NCBI GenBank assembly: GCA_024278375.1
Contig: JAJRTH010000025.1
Location: 1-41,251 of the forward strand
DNA: 41,251 bases
Source of the DNA: an archaeon
GTDB lineage: Archaea > Thermoplasmatota > Thermoplasmata > WALJ01
Direction: 5' to 3'
In this document: piece by piece, positions 24,446 through 37,890 of the stretch
Numbering within the stretch: the stretch's first letter is position 1
Layout of the letters: each line of letters begins with the position of its first letter
Notes under the pieces: generated by a model
What the model was told of the DNA's origin: nothing
What the model saw: only the letters and a program-made list of their open reading frames with translations
Databases searched by the model: none
Program-made: the position numbers and the translations under genes

Positions 24446-24518
24446 GCAGGCGTGATCTAGTTGGTTAGGATTAGGGCCTTCCAAGCCCTCTGCCCGGGTT
24501 CGAATCCCGGCGCCTGCA
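24446..24518 (+). tRNA. tRNA-Gly (anticodon TCC)
   Basis: GCAGGCGTGATCTAGTTGGTTAGGATTAGGGCCTTCCAAGCCCTCTGCCCGGGTTCGAATCCCGGCGCCTGCA; anticodon loop CTTCCAA. Confidence 0.96.
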
Positions 24519-24646
24519 CTCGCTCACTTCGTTCGCTCGTGCAGACAATCCCAAAAGTGCGAAGGCGTTACTTCGCACCCACGCACTCATATCCTCATGA
24601 GTGCTGCTCGCAAAATGCTTTGCATTTTGCTCGTCCCGGCGCCTGC
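24519..24646. repeat. Hairpin mosaic between tRNA-Gly 3' end and an echo of that 3' end (CCCGGCGCCTGC at 24635-24646)
   Basis: Hairpins GTGCGAAG-GCGTTA-CTTCGCAC (24557-24578), GCACTCAT-ATCCTC-ATGAGTGC (24583-24604), GCAAAATGC-TTT-GCATTTTGC (24610-24630); the 12-nt echo is identical to 24506-24517. Confidence 0.85.
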
Positions 24647-24668
24647 GTATAGGATATATCTGCAAAAT

Positions 24669-24686
24669 GCCACTATGGCTTAGCGG
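24669..24686 (+). repeat. Truncated tRNA-Thr 5' fragment (GCCACTATGGCTTAGCGG) followed by hairpin arms CTTTCTTTG/CAAAGAAAG
   Basis: 17/18 match to tRNA-Thr(GGT) positions 1-18. Confidence 0.85.
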
Positions 24687-24816
24687 CGGGCCCTTTCTTT
24701 GCTGCTCGCTCCGCTGGCTCGCCCTCCAAAGAAAGCCACCGGTGGTAAAGAAAATCGGGCTCACCTGCTCGCCCGCAATTTTCTTGTATTCGCCCACCAT
24801 CTCGCACCATTAACAT

Positions 24817-24948
24817 GCCACTGTGGCTTAGCGGTATCCGCACTCCTATCCTCAGGAGCGCTCTACCCTAAGCCTTCAACATGCCACTGTGGCTTAGCGG
24901 TATCCGCACTCCTATCCTCAGGAGCGCTCTACCCTAAGCCTTCAACAT
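24817..24948 (+). repeat. Two exact 66-bp tandem units, each starting with the 5' 21 nt of tRNA-Thr(GGT), abutting the intact tRNA gene
   Basis: Units 24817-24882 and 24883-24948; intact tRNA begins 24949. Each unit folds as GGCTTAGcGGTA..GCaCTCCT-ATCCTC-AGGAGcGC..TACCCTAAGCC. Confidence 0.93.
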
Positions 24949-25020
24949 GCCACTGTGGCTTAGCGGTATAGCGACGCCTTGGTAAGGCGTAGGTCGGGGG
25001 TTCGATTCCCCCCAGTGGCT
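24949..25020 (+). tRNA. tRNA-Thr (anticodon GGT)
   Basis: GCCACTGTGGCTTAGCGGTATAGCGACGCCTTGGTAAGGCGTAGGTCGGGGGTTCGATTCCCCCCAGTGGCT; anticodon loop TTGGTAA. Confidence 0.95.
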
Positions 25021-25087
25021 CTCAATAAGCGGAGCGTCCGGGGCATTTCCGAGGTGCGCTTTGCCCGAAGGGGTTAAAGGGCACTTC

Positions 25088-25113
25088 TTGATTCCGCCAG
25101 TGGCTCTCAATAA
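25088..25113 (+). repeat. Echo of tRNA-Thr 3' end plus flank (TTGATTCCGCCAGTGGCTCTCAATAA)
   Basis: CAGTGGCTCTCAATAA is identical at 25013-25028 and 25098-25113; the intervening sequence contains hairpin arms AGGTGCGCTTT/AAAGGGCACTT. Confidence 0.9.
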
Positions 25114-25135
25114 ACCGACCAGACATATGCAATCT

Positions 25136-25208
25136 GGGCCCGTGGTCTAGTGGTTATGACGTCCGCCTCACACGCGGGAGGTCGCCGGTTCAAATCCGGC
25201 CGGGCCCA
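25136..25208 (+). tRNA. tRNA-Val (anticodon CAC)
   Basis: GGGCCCGTGGTCTAGTGGTTATGACGTCCGCCTCACACGCGGGAGGTCGCCGGTTCAAATCCGGCCGGGCCCA; anticodon loop CTCACAC. Confidence 0.95.
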
Positions 25209-25245
25209 TCCCAAAAACTAAAAACATCCACTTTTTCCCTGTTCT

Positions 25246-30900: not shown

Positions 30901-33900
30901 TTATTTCCTTACCACCTTCTTCTTGACCACCTTCTTGACCACCTTCTTTGGCACCACAGGCGGCTTCTCTTCAGGTGCCCCGGTCTCCGGCGGCTTCTCA
31001 CCTGCGGGTTTTACCTCTTTAATCAGGTGCTCCGGCACGGTCGGTGCGGCTGGCGCACCCTTGTCCGGCTCTTCCGTTTTGAGTTGCTCTGAGGGGGGTT
31101 TCGGTGTCATCGGCTGTCTGACCACCTTTTTGACCACTTTCTTGGGTACAACTGGAGGCTTCTTTTCCTCGGCAAGAGGCATCTTCACGCCTTCCTCGGC
31201 TTTCTCAGCCTCCCCTTCCTCCGGTGGTTTTTCGCCCTCTTCTGCCTCTGCCTTCTCTTCGCCGGTTTCTTCGGACAGTTTCTCACCTGCTTCCTCCTTT
31301 TCCTCTTCAAGGGATGGCAGTTCTATCTTGGATATGGCCGCTTTCTCTATCCCTTCCTCCGCTTTGAGCTTTCTCTTCGTTGGTCTGAGCGGGCTTCCGC
31401 AGACATGGCAGACTATGTCAGTCTTGCTGTTGAGAGCGCCGCATTCCGGACAGAGAATTCCGCCCTTCTTCTTGCGCTCTTCCTCTCTCTTGAGCCAATC
31501 CTCGAAGGTGACATAGGATTTCTGAGACTTCCACCACTGCTGGAATTTCTCTTCGGTGAAGTCCTTGCCCATCTGTTCTCTGGCCTGTCTTCTGAACTTT
31601 TCAACGAACTCCTCGTACTGCTTCCTCATCTGTGTTTCGTAGTCCACTATCTCCTTGCCGGTGACCAGGAACTTGGCGCCGCACTTCGGGCACTCCTTGG
31701 CATCAGCCGGAATCCAGGCACCGCAGGCACTGCACTCGACGGTCTCCTTGTCAAACACGGCACCGCAGTAGGGACACTTGTCCGAACCGGCCGGAATCAT
31801 CTTTCCGCACTGTCCGCACTCAACGTACTTTCCGAGGGCGTACTTTCTCAGATACAGAATTGCGCCGACAACGATTCCGGCAGCAATGGCTGCGACTATG
31901 AGGATTATCATCCAGAATGGGAATTCAGTGACAGGTACCGGCCTCTGCAAGGAGAGATTTATGGGAGAGTAACTCGGAGTGAGCGCCGTTCCGTCGGGTT
32001 TCTCAGCGGTCACTACGACCTCATAATTGCCCGGGTTGGCGGGAAGGTTGATTTGAGCGCTGAACCTTCCGTCAGAGCCGGATGTAACCTGCTGGCTTGT
32101 GAGTGCCCCGGTCTCCACGTTCCGAATTCCTATGTTGAGCGTTATTCCAGAAACCGCGCCATTGTCCACGGAGTCTGTCGTCGAGCCAATGATGAAGATG
32201 CTGTTCTGTTCGTCGAGGTTTATCTCCTGCCCGTTCATCGGGCTGGTTATGGTTACTCTCAGCTGCATCTCTCTTATCTCCACAGTCCCGTTAACCAGAT
32301 TGTTGGTTTCCGAGGATTCGTCCACGATATTTTCCGAATCTATCAGCACATAGATATTGGCGGTTCCTGCCGGAAGCGTGAACCTTGTGATATTGAACGT
32401 GCGATTTACCGGAACGCCGGCATCCAGCTGGTCAAGCAGTGTCCGGTCGTCTATCGTTATGTTCCCTAGGCAGTTGCTCCAATCTCCTTCTACATAAGGT
32501 CCTGAAAAGAAGGATATAGTGAAGTATTCCACTCCGGAATAGTCAAGGCTGCCGTTGATGTTGTTCTCTATTGTTATATTCACCTTGAAGTCTCTCGATT
32601 CGGATATCCCTGCCGTGGCGTTTATGATGTTTCCGTTCCTGAGGAATGTAATGTTAGTTATCGTAAGGTCAGGTCTCGGGAGGATGTGAACAGAGAGAGT
32701 TTCTGTGTTATCGGCGGTATTTCCTTCCGGAGGCGTGGTGCTCGCAACGATTCTTACATATATTGTATGGTATCCAACACCCGAGGCACGCCATGTTACG
32801 CTGGCTTTAGGCTGCCAGTTCGCAGGCGGATCGGTATATGAAACCGTATCTATGAGTATTCCACCGTTATCCGGATTTCCATCATAGAAATATATAGTGA
32901 CGGTGCCAGTACAGCCTGTTCCGGTGTTTCTGATATCTGCAGATATTATAGCATCATGGTTATCCACAACCTCTGGCGTTCCATTATGCATAATATGTGC
33001 TGGATTCAGTATATTTATTGAGCTTATGGAGAATTCGGGTCTCGGACCCACGTATATGGTGGCCGTTGCCTGATTGTTCGATTCATTGGATTCGGATACA
33101 GCATCGGTCGAATCGACCTTTACTAATACGGTGTAATAATCTGATTTTGTTGCGGAAAAGACAATGGATACTGTCGTGCTCTCCCCGGCATTGAGACCGT
33201 CCACCGTCACATCATATGGAGCACTATTGATAAGGAACCTCACTGTGAACTGGTCGGTTATGTTTCTGTGTCCTATGTTGTAAACGGTGGCACTAATTGT
33301 TATGTCCTGATAAGTTAGAGGTGCGGCCGGCGTGTATGTGATGTCGGTGTCGCTTATTGCAAGGTCTATCGAGAGTTTGACATATATCGTGGATTCCATT
33401 TCATACCTGTTATTGTCGGTATAGGTCTCAGGCGGGTCTCCGGCGCTGTTTGAGAAACTGACGAGCGCATGGAATGCATGCTCGCCTTCGGGAGATACGG
33501 CAGTCCAGAGCATTGAGATCGGGATGGAACCTCCCGCTGACAGATTGGTCGTGACTGAAGCGTTGCCTATCCACTGCCCAGTGGTATCGTCATAGAAATC
33601 GACGGTAATCGTTCCGTTGGCGTATGTCTCGCCTATGTTGGTCACGGTTGCGGTTATCGTCACATTGTCATATTCCACCACCGCATCAGATGCGCTCATA
33701 TCGGATATTATAAGGTCCGGCGTGGGAAGAACTGTTAGAATATATATGGCGGTGTTGTTGAGTTCATCGACCTCGGAAATGACCCCTTTCGAATCGACCA
33801 CTACTTCGATTACATATGTCCCGGCCTTGCTCTCATTGAAATCAAAGTAAACATTTGCAGTCGCTCCAGGCAGCATCCCTCCTATTTCTTGTGTATTGCT

Positions 33901-36900
33901 CAGAGTCCCGTCGATATATATCGCAACCGTAAATGCCCCCACGCTCTCATTTCCGCTGTTATGCACGGTTGCATTTATCGTTATCTGCTGGTATGTGTAC
34001 GGACTTGCTGGGGTAGCGATTATGTCCGTATCCGAGATTGAAAGGTCAACATACGGATTGACAAGGATATCCGCAGTATTTCCGTTGTTTCCCATGTTCA
34101 TTTCAGGCGGATTTGAGCCCGCGGGTGTGAATGAGACCACTGCGTATATGGTATGGTATGTATTGGCAGGCCTCTTTGCATTCCATACTATATTAAGATA
34201 AAGCGAAGAGCCGGAAGACAGGTTCGCCGTTGTGATGTTCTGTCCGATGAACTGTCCTGTCGTGTTGTCGTAGAAATCTACGGTAATCGTTCCGTTGGCG
34301 TATGTCTCGCCTATGTTGGTCACGGTGGCGTTAATCGTTGTGTTGAAACCTTCTACAACAGGCGATGGGTCGAAGCTCAGGGAGTTTATTATGAGGTCCG
34401 GTGTCGGAAGAACGGTCAGATAGTAAAGGGCGGTGTTATTGGTCTCGAAGGTCTCGAGAATTCTGTCTCTCGAATCCACAAAGACCATAATCACATATTC
34501 GCCGGATGTGTTCACATAGGTAGATGCCTGTATTGTATACGCCTGTCCGGCACCCAGTCCGTAGACCGTTTCACCGTAAACCGCCTCACCCGGGTTGTTG
34601 AAGACATATGATGATGTGACCTCTCCGTAGTATGCTATGGTCTCCACATGTCTGACGATCACTCCGTTTTCGATCATCTCAAGAACAAGCGTATTGTTGG
34701 TCGCATCCTCTTTCCTGAATGTGGCGGTGACATCATTTCCTATGACCGTGAAATATCTCGGCCCGGTTCCCGAATAGGAATGGGTTCCGTTGTCGTCCGT
34801 TATCTCCCCGCTCCACGGCCCCGAGTAGTTCACATAGACCTGATTGGTACCTAGATATAGAATTACAAGGCTGTCAAACGTATCGGTTATGGCTTCTATG
34901 CCCGTATTGTAGAAGGTGGCTGTTATGTTTATTTTTTGATAGGTGTAAGGAGCCGAAGGTGTCAGAATCACATCGGAATTCGAAATCGACAGGTCCACAT
35001 AGGGACTTACCAGGATGTCTCCCGTGTTGGCGTTGTTCGTATCGTCCATCTCAGGCGGATCTGTGCCAGAGGGGCTGAAGGAAACGACACAGTATATAGT
35101 ATGATACGTGGATACCGGAGCCCTCGCCGTCCATGATATGGTCACATACGAATAGGAGCCGACGGAGATATTTGTGAGCACGGCAGTCTGGCCAATGTAT
35201 TCCCCTGTGGTGTTATCATAGAAATCAACAGTTATGGTGCCGTTCGCATATGTCTCCCCGACATTCCTCACGCTGGCATTTATTACCGTATTGAAACTCT
35301 CTATTACCGGCGAAGGATTGAAGGTCACGCCTTCGATTATCAGGTCCGGCACAGGCTCTGTGGAGAGAATCCTGTACGCAGTGTTATTCGTAAGGTTGTC
35401 GTCATCAATTCCGCTCGGGACGACAATCTCAACCGAAACATTGTAGTCTCCCGCGGTATCCGTGCTATAAGTCGCATTTGCAATGGCATAACCCCCGGCC
35501 GCTATACCGTTTATCACATCCGAACCTGTGAGCACTCCGTCCACATAGAAGTTCACGGTTATGTCTCCGGTTATGTCGGCATAACCTTCGTTTGTTACAT
35601 TCGCATAGACAGTGAGATTGATGTTGGTATAGCTGGCCCCATAGGTGGTGTTTTCCCACCATATGTGCAGCGGAATTATCGAGAGGTCATAGAGCGCATT
35701 GACGAAGCAATTTGCCGTTCTGTTGTTATTGCTTCTGTTGCCGTCGAGTATATTTCCTGCCGGGTCCACAACTATGGTTATTTCGCGATTGCCATAATCT
35801 CCATACACGGTCTGCCAGCTCAGGGAAACATTTACCACCCCACTGTTTCTTTCCACCATCTGACTTACCGTTGTGCTGTTAACCAAAGTTCCGTCCACTA
35901 GGAGGTCCACATCAAAGGCTTTTGTTACGTTTATTCCTCCGATATTCTGAATGGTTGCATTAATCCACACACGGTCTCCTCTTATGATGGTTGCCGGAGA
36001 AATCGAAATACTGGAAACAGTGAGGTCTCTCGGCGGATATTCCCAGGAAAAGGAATAATTTGCATTGAAAGTGTTATTTTCTGGAGATATGAGGGGATAA
36101 GGCTCAAAATTTATCTGCTGAATTACGCTTGTATTATGAACATACTCGTCCATTCTCACAAGATAATTTCCCAGAAATACTCCATTGAGGTCAGAAGCAT
36201 TTATTATCTGCTTCAGGAGAGGCATTCTCCCAACTCCAGAAGCATTTGTTATATTGTAATTTGTTTCATCTATTGCCCTGTCGAAGGATGTTCTGTTGAG
36301 ATATTCCAGTACCGGATCGCCGTTTCTAAGAGTGTTGTTGTCAGATGTTATGTTTATCGCTTTAGAGTTGGATGGGGCATAATATCTGGGTGTCATCCTG
36401 CAATATGGAACAGGTGTTGGGTTCGTGCTGTTTCCATCGGTTGAAAAAGCGTTGAGCCATCCATAAAAGAATATCTGGGAGGTGTCTTGAGGCAGGAAAA
36501 CGAAATCTGGATGCGCTCCTCCGGTCTCGCTTTCATCCACCGTGACATTGTAGAATCTTATCTCGGCACCGTTTCTTGACACGAATTTGTCAACCACCCA
36601 TGGCGATTTTGTTGCGGTCGAAGATGTACCCGAGGGCTCCAAGAAATCTAAATCAAAATACGAGTTTATCCCATAAAAACTCCCCCCATCAACAATTATA
36701 TCAAACGAAAGCGTTATATCTATCTGTATCAGGTCAAACGGTACGTTACCGGCAGTTCCGGTATGCGTGAAGTTAACGTCCATGGTCCTTATTTCGTCTA
36801 TGTTTCTGAAACCGAGGGATTTCAGATTTATGGACGCGCTCCCAGCACTTCCGTTGGGTTGAAAAGTAGTACGCTCGGCCGCTCCATCTTTTCCTACCCA

Positions 36901-37890
36901 TATATATCCATCCCCATCATATGTGTTGTTGGCGCCCCACACAATAGTTAATACGGCCGAGGAGATGGAAGTATAATCAGGTAACCAGTCAGGAAGGTTC
37001 AGAGAGGAGGAAAAATTGTCGATAAACATCTCTTCAGAAGCATTCACATAGTAATACACTCCGTCATAATCCCTAAGCGACTGTAAGTTTCCAGTAGTGG
37101 TGTCGCTAACTCCTTTGCTGGAGGGATAAAGATCTAACGTTCCAGACGGAGATATTGGCAAATTGCTGTTTTCATAGTAATCTTCAATTCTCGAATCTGC
37201 AAAGACCACTTTGCTGTTAATAAACGACATCAGGGGGCAGTCATCGTTGTCGTCCACATCGAAAGAATCGGCATTACCATCCTGGTTGTAATCATGGGTT
37301 GCCACAGTATCCAGTCCTTTGAAGGTGGTGTAATTGGCATACAGAATTCCGTTTAAAACGGTAAAATTCCCGGGAAAAGCGAGAACAGAGTTGTTCAACC
37401 GCGCTCTGCCTTCCACGGTCACCGGAAGTTTAAGATAGGGATTCACAGCCCAGTCCACAACAGTGAGGGTCGAATTATCCATTATCAGGTTCCCTCCGCT
37501 TTCTACCCTGAGCCAGTAGTGATGGTCATCGGATGGGTCTGTCGGGTTGTTTCCGTTGTCCTGAAGGAAGTACAGCTTAGCATTCCTAACTATCAATGTT
37601 CCTCCGTTCGCAACGGTTATGTTCCCGTCCTGGCCGTACATTCCGCTCTGGCCTGTAATTGGGTCTATCGTGTTTTCGTCTATCACGAATGTGCCCGTGA
37701 TAATAAGGTCCGTTACCGCATTTATACTGTTTTCCGGGGAGGTATCGGCTCCCGAACTCTGCAGCAGAATTGCCATCGGGCCCATTATGAATAACACTAC
37801 AACCATCAAGCTGAGCATCTTGTTGAGAGATTTCTTTGCCGTCATATACTCGCACCTCTGAGTGGGACTGAAGAATGAAAGTAATAGCAC
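30901..37890 (-). CDS. Giant CARDB-repeat surface protein with TM anchor and cytoplasmic zinc ribbons
   Basis: 2329 aa; N-terminal signal-like helix; about ten CARDB-like modules (PDLIIxxxxFxPSPVxExxNTxINAxVxNxGETYANG, VDLSISxxDIxxTPAxPYTYQxIxIxATVxN); TM FPFWMIILIVAAIAAGIVVGAILYL; then CGQCGKMIPAGSDKCPYCG, CSACGAWIPADAKECPKCG, CPECGALNSKTDIVCHVCG; KKVVKKVV-rich tail. Confidence 0.88.
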   Translation of the reverse strand: MLLLSFFSPTQRCEYMTAKKSLNKMLSLMVVVLFIMGPMAILLQSSGADTSPENSINAVTDLIITGTFVIDENTIDPITGQSGMYGQDGNITVANGGTLIVRNAKLYFLQDNGNNPTDPSDDHHYWLRVESGGNLIMDNSTLTVVDWAVNPYLKLPVTVEGRARLNNSVLAFPGNFTVLNGILYANYTTFKGLDTVATHDYNQDGNADSFDVDDNDDCPLMSFINSKVVFADSRIEDYYENSNLPISPSGTLDLYPSSKGVSDTTTGNLQSLRDYDGVYYYVNASEEMFIDNFSSSLNLPDWLPDYTSISSAVLTIVWGANNTYDGDGYIWVGKDGAAERTTFQPNGSAGSASINLKSLGFRNIDEIRTMDVNFTHTGTAGNVPFDLIQIDITLSFDIIVDGGSFYGINSYFDLDFLEPSGTSSTATKSPWVVDKFVSRNGAEIRFYNVTVDESETGGAHPDFVFLPQDTSQIFFYGWLNAFSTDGNSTNPTPVPYCRMTPRYYAPSNSKAINITSDNNTLRNGDPVLEYLNRTSFDRAIDETNYNITNASGVGRMPLLKQIINASDLNGVFLGNYLVRMDEYVHNTSVIQQINFEPYPLISPENNTFNANYSFSWEYPPRDLTVSSISISPATIIRGDRVWINATIQNIGGINVTKAFDVDLLVDGTLVNSTTVSQMVERNSGVVNVSLSWQTVYGDYGNREITIVVDPAGNILDGNRSNNNRTANCFVNALYDLSIIPLHIWWENTTYGASYTNINLTVYANVTNEGYADITGDITVNFYVDGVLTGSDVINGIAAGGYAIANATYSTDTAGDYNVSVEIVVPSGIDDDNLTNNTAYRILSTEPVPDLIIEGVTFNPSPVIESFNTVINASVRNVGETYANGTITVDFYDNTTGEYIGQTAVLTNISVGSYSYVTISWTARAPVSTYHTIYCVVSFSPSGTDPPEMDDTNNANTGDILVSPYVDLSISNSDVILTPSAPYTYQKINITATFYNTGIEAITDTFDSLVILYLGTNQVYVNYSGPWSGEITDDNGTHSYSGTGPRYFTVIGNDVTATFRKEDATNNTLVLEMIENGVIVRHVETIAYYGEVTSSYVFNNPGEAVYGETVYGLGAGQAYTIQASTYVNTSGEYVIMVFVDSRDRILETFETNNTALYYLTVLPTPDLIINSLSFDPSPVVEGFNTTINATVTNIGETYANGTITVDFYDNTTGQFIGQNITTANLSSGSSLYLNIVWNAKRPANTYHTIYAVVSFTPAGSNPPEMNMGNNGNTADILVNPYVDLSISDTDIIATPASPYTYQQITINATVHNSGNESVGAFTVAIYIDGTLSNTQEIGGMLPGATANVYFDFNESKAGTYVIEVVVDSKGVISEVDELNNTAIYILTVLPTPDLIISDMSASDAVVEYDNVTITATVTNIGETYANGTITVDFYDDTTGQWIGNASVTTNLSAGGSIPISMLWTAVSPEGEHAFHALVSFSNSAGDPPETYTDNNRYEMESTIYVKLSIDLAISDTDITYTPAAPLTYQDITISATVYNIGHRNITDQFTVRFLINSAPYDVTVDGLNAGESTTVSIVFSATKSDYYTVLVKVDSTDAVSESNESNNQATATIYVGPRPEFSISSINILNPAHIMHNGTPEVVDNHDAIISADIRNTGTGCTGTVTIYFYDGNPDNGGILIDTVSYTDPPANWQPKASVTWRASGVGYHTIYVRIVASTTPPEGNTADNTETLSVHILPRPDLTITNITFLRNGNIINATAGISESRDFKVNITIENNINGSLDYSGVEYFTISFFSGPYVEGDWSNCLGNITIDDRTLLDQLDAGVPVNRTFNITRFTLPAGTANIYVLIDSENIVDESSETNNLVNGTVEIREMQLRVTITSPMNGQEINLDEQNSIFIIGSTTDSVDNGAVSGITLNIGIRNVETGALTSQQVTSGSDGRFSAQINLPANPGNYEVVVTAEKPDGTALTPSYSPINLSLQRPVPVTEFPFWMIILIVAAIAAGIVVGAILYLRKYALGKYVECGQCGKMIPAGSDKCPYCGAVFDKETVECSACGAWIPADAKECPKCGAKFLVTGKEIVDYETQMRKQYEEFVEKFRRQAREQMGKDFTEEKFQQWWKSQKSYVTFEDWLKREEERKKKGGILCPECGALNSKTDIVCHVCGSPLRPTKRKLKAEEGIEKAAISKIELPSLEEEKEEAGEKLSEETGEEKAEAEEGEKPPEEGEAEKAEEGVKMPLAEEKKPPVVPKKVVKKVVRQPMTPKPPSEQLKTEEPDKGAPAAPTVPEHLIKEVKPAGEKPPETGAPEEKPPVVPKKVVKKVVKKKVVRK

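Follow-up and report, generated by a model that had tools for sequence, protein, structure and literature searches.

At about a third to half of the tRNA genes in one lineage of Thermoplasmata, interrupted copies of the tRNA itself are found, with hairpins at fixed loop positions. The inserts behave like tiny tRNA-seeking insertions, and the explanation that we favour, although we judge the case for and against it to be about evenly balanced, is that they are non-autonomous hairpin cassettes passing from one tRNA gene to another by insertion into a loop, the outer part of the tRNA being duplicated. The positions at which the copies break, their association with tRNA genes, a polymorphism with empty sites, the recurrence of one element (type B) at unrelated tRNAs and the nesting of another (type A) within it can be read directly from the sequences; the dispersal of type B, the nesting, the polymorphism and the fixed loop positions favour non-autonomous cassettes.

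The window, meaning the whole 41,251 nt stretch of DNA that was analysed, comes from contig C4 of a Thermoplasmata MAG (G000; 1.42 Mb, 95 contigs, 91 % complete), the PurF of which shares 86, 81 and 68 % identity with that of three Thermoplasmata MAGs, apparently G002, G004 and G001 to judge from their contig numbers. The comparison set consisted of five genomes of the order (G000 to G004, G000 being the genome of the window), all of them MAGs with a completeness of 74–91 %. Each tRNA (42 in G000, 152 in the other four genomes) was checked for repeats of its own 5′ and 3′ ends in up to 300 nt of flank, using the stretches around the tRNAs with other tRNA genes masked; as the control, the same flanks were compared to the ends of the genome's other tRNAs. 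As the test considers exact matches and ignores degenerate copies, the counts are probably low. For the loci in the window, the control was dinucleotide-shuffled downstream sequence (200 shuffles).

Repeated tRNA ends in the window

An earlier note on this DNA had drawn attention to repeats of the 3′ ends of tRNA-Gly and tRNA-Thr downstream of the respective genes, and both were found where it had placed them. The tRNA-Gly repeat, TCCCGGCGCCTGC (24505–24517 and 24634–24646), is 13 nt long, one more than had been noted, and was matched in none of the 200 shuffles. The tRNA-Thr repeat, CCAGTGGCTCTCAATAA (25012–25028 and 25097–25113), does lie within a longer imperfect match (25 nt, 88 %; 25009–25033 and 25094–25118) and was equalled in one of 200 shuffles when its 10 tRNA nucleotides alone were counted. 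Three partial copies of the 5′ end upstream of tRNA-Thr (24669–24686, 24817–24837 and 24883–24903) had escaped notice, and the last two fall within an exact 66 bp tandem repeat (Table 1). As had been proposed, the segments are hairpin insertions that are bracketed by tRNA sequence and are too small for coding.

The element at 24582–24633 is a clean example of type A, with a folding energy of −22.5 kcal/mol (z −6.4). The fold-back arrangement at the 3′ end of tRNA-Gly also follows many other tRNAs, the 3′ arm of the hairpin in the 66 bp units is complementary to the tRNA D-arm, and hairpins related to type C precede the T-loop of other 3′ copies. Elsewhere, the window encodes a 2328-residue protein (30901–37887, minus strand) that contains eight or more CARDB repeats and, near the C-terminus, a zinc-ribbon.

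Table 1. Coordinates of features in the window and of tRNA-adjacent tyrosine integrase genes in two of the genomes
Feature	Position	Strand	Basis or remark
Intact tRNA-Gly(TCC)	24446–24519	+	ARAGORN and Rfam RF00005
Fold-back hairpin: tRNA-Gly 3′ end (TGCAC) and inverted complement downstream	24516–24543	+	Sequence reading
H2-like hairpin GTGCGAAGGCGTTACTTCGCAC	24557–24578	+	Sequence reading
Type A double hairpin: H1 (24583–24604), TGCTCG, H2 (24611–24629), CTCG	24582–24633	+	
tRNA-Gly 3′ copy (T-arm 3′ strand and acceptor)	24634–24646	+	Repeat match, shuffles
tRNA-Thr 5′ copy, nt 1–18, one mismatch, broken at D-loop	24669–24686	+	
Type B hairpin element, ends approximate	24687–24787	+	31 matches in five genomes, nearly all tRNA-adjacent
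First 66 bp unit: tRNA-Thr nt 1–21, hairpin, 8 nt flank	24817–24882	+	Fold z −5.7
Second 66 bp unit, identical to first	24883–24948	+	
Intact tRNA-Thr(GGT)	24949–25021	+	ARAGORN and Rfam RF00005
Type C hairpin GAGGTGC...GGCACTTC	25051–25087	+	z −1.7, weak, computed on whole insert
tRNA-Thr 3′ copy, T-loop onward (GATTCCGCCAGTGGCTC), and 7 nt flank	25090–25113	+	
Intact tRNA-Val(CAC)	25135–25211	+	ARAGORN and Rfam RF00005
tRNA-adjacent tyrosine integrase gene	G000:C13:8064–8531		
tRNA-adjacent tyrosine integrase gene	G000:C18:2044–2532		
tRNA-adjacent tyrosine integrase gene	G002:C183:447–932		
tRNA-adjacent tyrosine integrase gene	G002:C165:1622–2116		

Break positions and hairpin inserts in five genomes

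When the scan was compared with its controls, repeats of the tRNA's own 5′ end of at least 12 nt were found for 11 of the 42 tRNAs in G000 (0.26 expected) and repeats of the own 3′ end of at least 10 nt for six of the 42 (0.38 expected), and the excess in the four relatives was similar or larger. At 12 nt or more, upstream repeats were found at 13/41 tRNAs in G001, 14/31 in G002, 14/36 in G003 and 7/37 in G004 (0–0.33 expected per genome from the ends of other tRNAs), and downstream repeats numbered 3, 10, 9, 9 and 10 in G000 to G004, respectively (0–0.30 expected from the same control).

The copies break at very restricted positions. Forty of the 42 upstream copies that start from tRNA nt 1–3 break at nt 13–27, with a peak at nt 24, which corresponds to the D-loop region, and all 41 downstream copies begin 13–20 nt from the tRNA 3′ end, in the T-loop. 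An upstream copy runs from the first nucleotide of the tRNA, or from the flank preceding it, to the D-loop region and is followed by the hairpin insert; in many, the tRNA sequence resumes at about nt 23–28 and ends at about nt 37–53, after which an AT-rich spacer leads to the intact tRNA. Several upstream copies form tandem arrays. Downstream copies run from the T-loop to the end of the tRNA, often with the flank shared too. A few copies (L182, L202, L232, L233 and L234) are near-complete tRNAs broken solely in the T-loop, at TTCAAA^CACG...CTCG^TCCC or a close variant. Near-complete false tRNA copies are common in this lineage, a warning for tRNA annotation.

The typical insert at the break, type A, has the layout H1-GCTCG-H2-CTCG, and 11 of 11 examples fold as two hairpins (z-scores of −2.4 to −6.4). 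A covariance model of type A elements included just 5 base pairs and carries little information. Certain loops recur, namely TATCCTCA in many H1 and GCGTAA or TATC in many H2, and the H2 stems are varied, with 40 different stems among 61. As units at tRNA-Arg carry the same H1 and a wholly different, perfectly paired H2, single hairpins look exchangeable. The pattern TATCCTCA..GCTCG has 12 matches in the five genomes, all 12 near tRNAs (none for the reversed-pattern control), and the H2 loop pattern has 10, all of them near tRNAs and on the tRNA strand (one for the control). Counted on one strand, 146 kb of flank contained 61 H2 hairpins, compared to three in 374 kb lying more than 500 nt away and counted on both strands, and hairpins in the flanks were oriented with the tRNA's strand in 74 cases and opposite to it in 10.

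Wherever a tRNA was found beside a match to type B, the two share a strand; several matches begin 2–4 nt past the tRNA, and copies at different tRNAs are 78–91 % identical over up to about 100 nt. In a G001 copy of type B upstream of tRNA-Thr, we read two A-type double hairpins as nested in opposite orientations. Dispersal over many kinds of sites was not seen, the type A patterns lying solely, and type B nearly solely, near tRNAs. Inspection by eye distinguished three further types, C, D and E. Upstream of a tRNA-Ser(tga) (L022) and downstream of a tRNA-Arg(ccg) (L030) there is a double-hairpin repeat that looks related, TTGCACAAATAGT ... GGCCATGGTGC, with no tRNA echo accompanying it. A viral carrier of type B was ruled out, as the ten viral contigs matched by the B core share only about 19 nt and not the element, and the matches listed when the viral collection was searched with the type A pattern, which is too short there, look like chance.

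Presence and absence between species

The presence/absence polymorphism of the segments among relatives that the earlier note had envisaged was seen: 19 isoacceptors have an upstream unit, and 21 a downstream unit, in some of the five genomes and not in others. Most isoacceptors vary between species and many tRNAs have no unit at all; the units at Arg(tct) and Thr(ggt) persist across species. At tRNA-Thr(ggt) in G003, both 66 bp units and the 85 bp downstream unit are missing, leaving a clean empty site with a spacing of about 22 nt between tRNA-Thr and tRNA-Val, although precise deletion between direct repeats would produce empty sites just as well, insertion and deletion being indistinguishable at single loci.

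The pattern extends to a second family of the class (f5), in which upstream repeats of at least 12 nt were found for 12/47 tRNAs (0.5 expected) and downstream repeats for 3/48 (0 expected), and the layout H1-GCTCG-H2-CTCG precedes the T-arm TCC at two loci (L424 and L436), with a variant at a third (L430). Its recurrence in five separate MAGs and a second family rules out an assembly artefact. Tandem upstream units of about 60 nt, each comprising tRNA nt 1–11 and two hairpins, were observed at tRNA-Asn in f5 (L306 and L308), and their stems are paired and differ between species. Elsewhere in the class the excess is weak (2/105 upstream at 12 nt or more, 0 expected), the cases including genuine-looking units at tRNA-Asn and tRNA-Met (L316 and L307), and a small sample from other classes of the phylum contained no echo of at least 9 nt in 24 tRNAs.

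Explanations and comparison with known systems

If the inserts are cassettes, one of type A, B, C or another type would enter the D-loop, T-loop or anticodon loop of a tRNA. Entry into the D- or T-loop would be accompanied by duplication of the outer tRNA part together with some flank, such that one intact tRNA is always left, and the interrupted partial copies would end up outside it, 5′ copies upstream and 3′ copies downstream; an insert in the anticodon loop would occupy the canonical intron position, and splicing could remove it. Units would multiply in tandem afterwards, with single hairpins within them being swapped. Spread would occur through insertion and not gene conversion, and intact tRNAs would persist because only duplicating events survive selection. 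Fold-back arms, and loops that persist while their stems are rewritten, suggest a part for hairpin-primed template switching in the copying. However, the way in which upstream copies resume and end within the tRNA means that a separate tandem duplication step is needed, and the many stems that are peculiar to one locus are as compatible with local synthesis as with mobility. Searches with PF01797 and PF00589 found no transposase or integrase linked to the cassettes in the five genomes, and no autonomous partner with the same ends as the segments was found.

Local template switching is a serious rival. In this explanation, which we regard as rather doubtful, the tRNA genes are mutational hot spots at which replication stalls and fold-back or template-switch synthesis yields local tandem duplications and new hairpins, nothing being mobile. 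The conservation of loops would follow from loop-primed synthesis, in which the stem is rewritten and the loop retained, and template switching has been documented to make perfect stems in RNA hairpins, or to rewrite them, in one event with the loop kept (PMC8794818). Fold-back arms complementary to the tRNA itself (the 66 bp tRNA-Thr units and the Val units), the many different H2 stems with few recurring loops and the exchanged H2 of the Arg units would all be accounted for. What local synthesis does not provide is copying between loci, which the type B sequence common to unrelated tRNAs and the type A double hairpins nested in it need, and two families of the class share both the fixed loop positions and the GCTCG/CTCG spacers. 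Template switching is also a general, low-rate mutation process (PMC8794818), whereas the archaeal hairpins recur at dispersed loci and are targeted to tRNA loops. That the interrupted copies are instead functional RNAs or regulatory elements, transcribed and acting on tRNA expression, processing or modification, is unlikely. The strong bias to the tRNA's strand, the conserved loops with varied but paired stems, the AT-rich promoter-like spacers repeated before copies (judged by eye) and the persistence of the Arg(tct) and Thr(ggt) units are consistent with such a role, but most isoacceptors differ between species and many tRNAs lack units.

The earlier note was right to see non-coding, tRNA-bracketed insertions, and its idea survived the two tests by which it could have been refuted, as the repeats exceed controls genome-wide and the segments are polymorphic among relatives, but its suggestion that they are leftovers of integrases acting at tRNA 3′ ends is not supported. 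Scars of this kind, formed if tyrosine integrases placed elements at tRNA genes that were later deleted to their ends, are disfavoured by these data and we consider them very unlikely. The break points of the 3′ copies do fit the T-loop, a known place of integrase crossover, and direct repeats of the tRNA end are present at many tRNAs. Integrases are found in most of the five genomes and, as some of their genes lie about 100–250 nt downstream of tRNA 3′ ends (Table 1), true integrative elements also use these tRNAs. There is a one-locus precedent in Caldiarchaeum, where an integrating element is linked to both a 24/25 intron and a 5′ fragment of tRNA-Thr (PMC3293823), and the full and partial tRNAs left by integrating elements likewise form direct repeats, broken in the T-loop or at 24/25 (PMC9897764, PMC3293823). 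However, over half of the pattern consists of 5′ copies broken in the D-loop region, these are often in tandem arrays, and the units are filled with the same hairpin families, which recur at unrelated tRNAs. Known fragments pair singly with a kilobase-sized element carrying an integrase (PMC9897764, PMC3293823), whereas here dozens of tRNAs have hairpin-filled units of 60–230 bp, too small to carry one, and G001, in which copies of 12 nt or more number 13 upstream and 10 downstream, has no PF00589 match.

Short, non-coding, mobile-looking double hairpins occur in fungal mitochondria. Like the mitochondrial double-hairpin or repetitive hairpin-forming elements, including those of a sponge (PMC2800124), the archaeal inserts are short, non-coding and mobile-looking with no known enzyme, can sit within RNA genes, have two adjacent hairpins as the repeated unit and are present or absent at orthologous sites. 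The mitochondrial elements are, however, scattered through intergenic regions, introns and rRNA, whereas those described here are confined to tRNA genes, with fixed loops and duplicated partial tRNAs; in the sponge elements the stems are conserved and the loops vary (PMC2800124), the reverse of the situation here. REP/RAYT systems also have small hairpins in arrays and a short conserved tetranucleotide beside the stem (CTCG here), but are not restricted to tRNA flanks with partial tRNA copies. A simple REP/RAYT origin was ruled out, as a Y1 (HUH) transposase (PF01797) was undetected in G000, G001, G002 and G004, with fragments in G003, these genomes being incomplete.

Archaeal tRNA introns, too, interrupt tRNA loops, both at the canonical position and at others such as about 24/25 and 59/60 (PMC3218864, PMC4090602), but most of the inserts described here are in partial, non-functional copies beside an intact gene. 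The D- and T-loop inserts do not interrupt an otherwise complete functional tRNA, and on sequence grounds only those in tRNA-Pro look like introns. A 77 nt insert follows the anticodon of tRNA-Pro(cgg) in G000 and is absent from G003 and G001, where the site is cleanly empty. It closely resembles the insert of another tRNA-Pro in G000 and G003 and has short stretches in common with type B. We found no description of this pattern in the literature searched, which covered open-licence papers only, and we tentatively propose, as a possibility, an undescribed class of selfish DNA hairpins that would recognise tRNA-shaped single strands and insert in their loops, an intact tRNA being regenerated by duplication of the outer part and inserts in the anticodon loop becoming tRNA introns. 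If so, archaeal tRNA introns and fragments would arise directly from selfish hairpins. With its empty sites and graded divergence, this family makes it possible to test how tRNA introns, split tRNAs and tRNA fragments originated. Hairpin-rich inserts of 75–77 nt occupy the canonical intron position of three tRNA-Pro genes (L016 on G000:C38, L004 on G000:C94 and L140 in G003). In G000, two different tRNA-Pro genes have nearly identical inserts, which looks like the spread of an intron from one paralogue to another.
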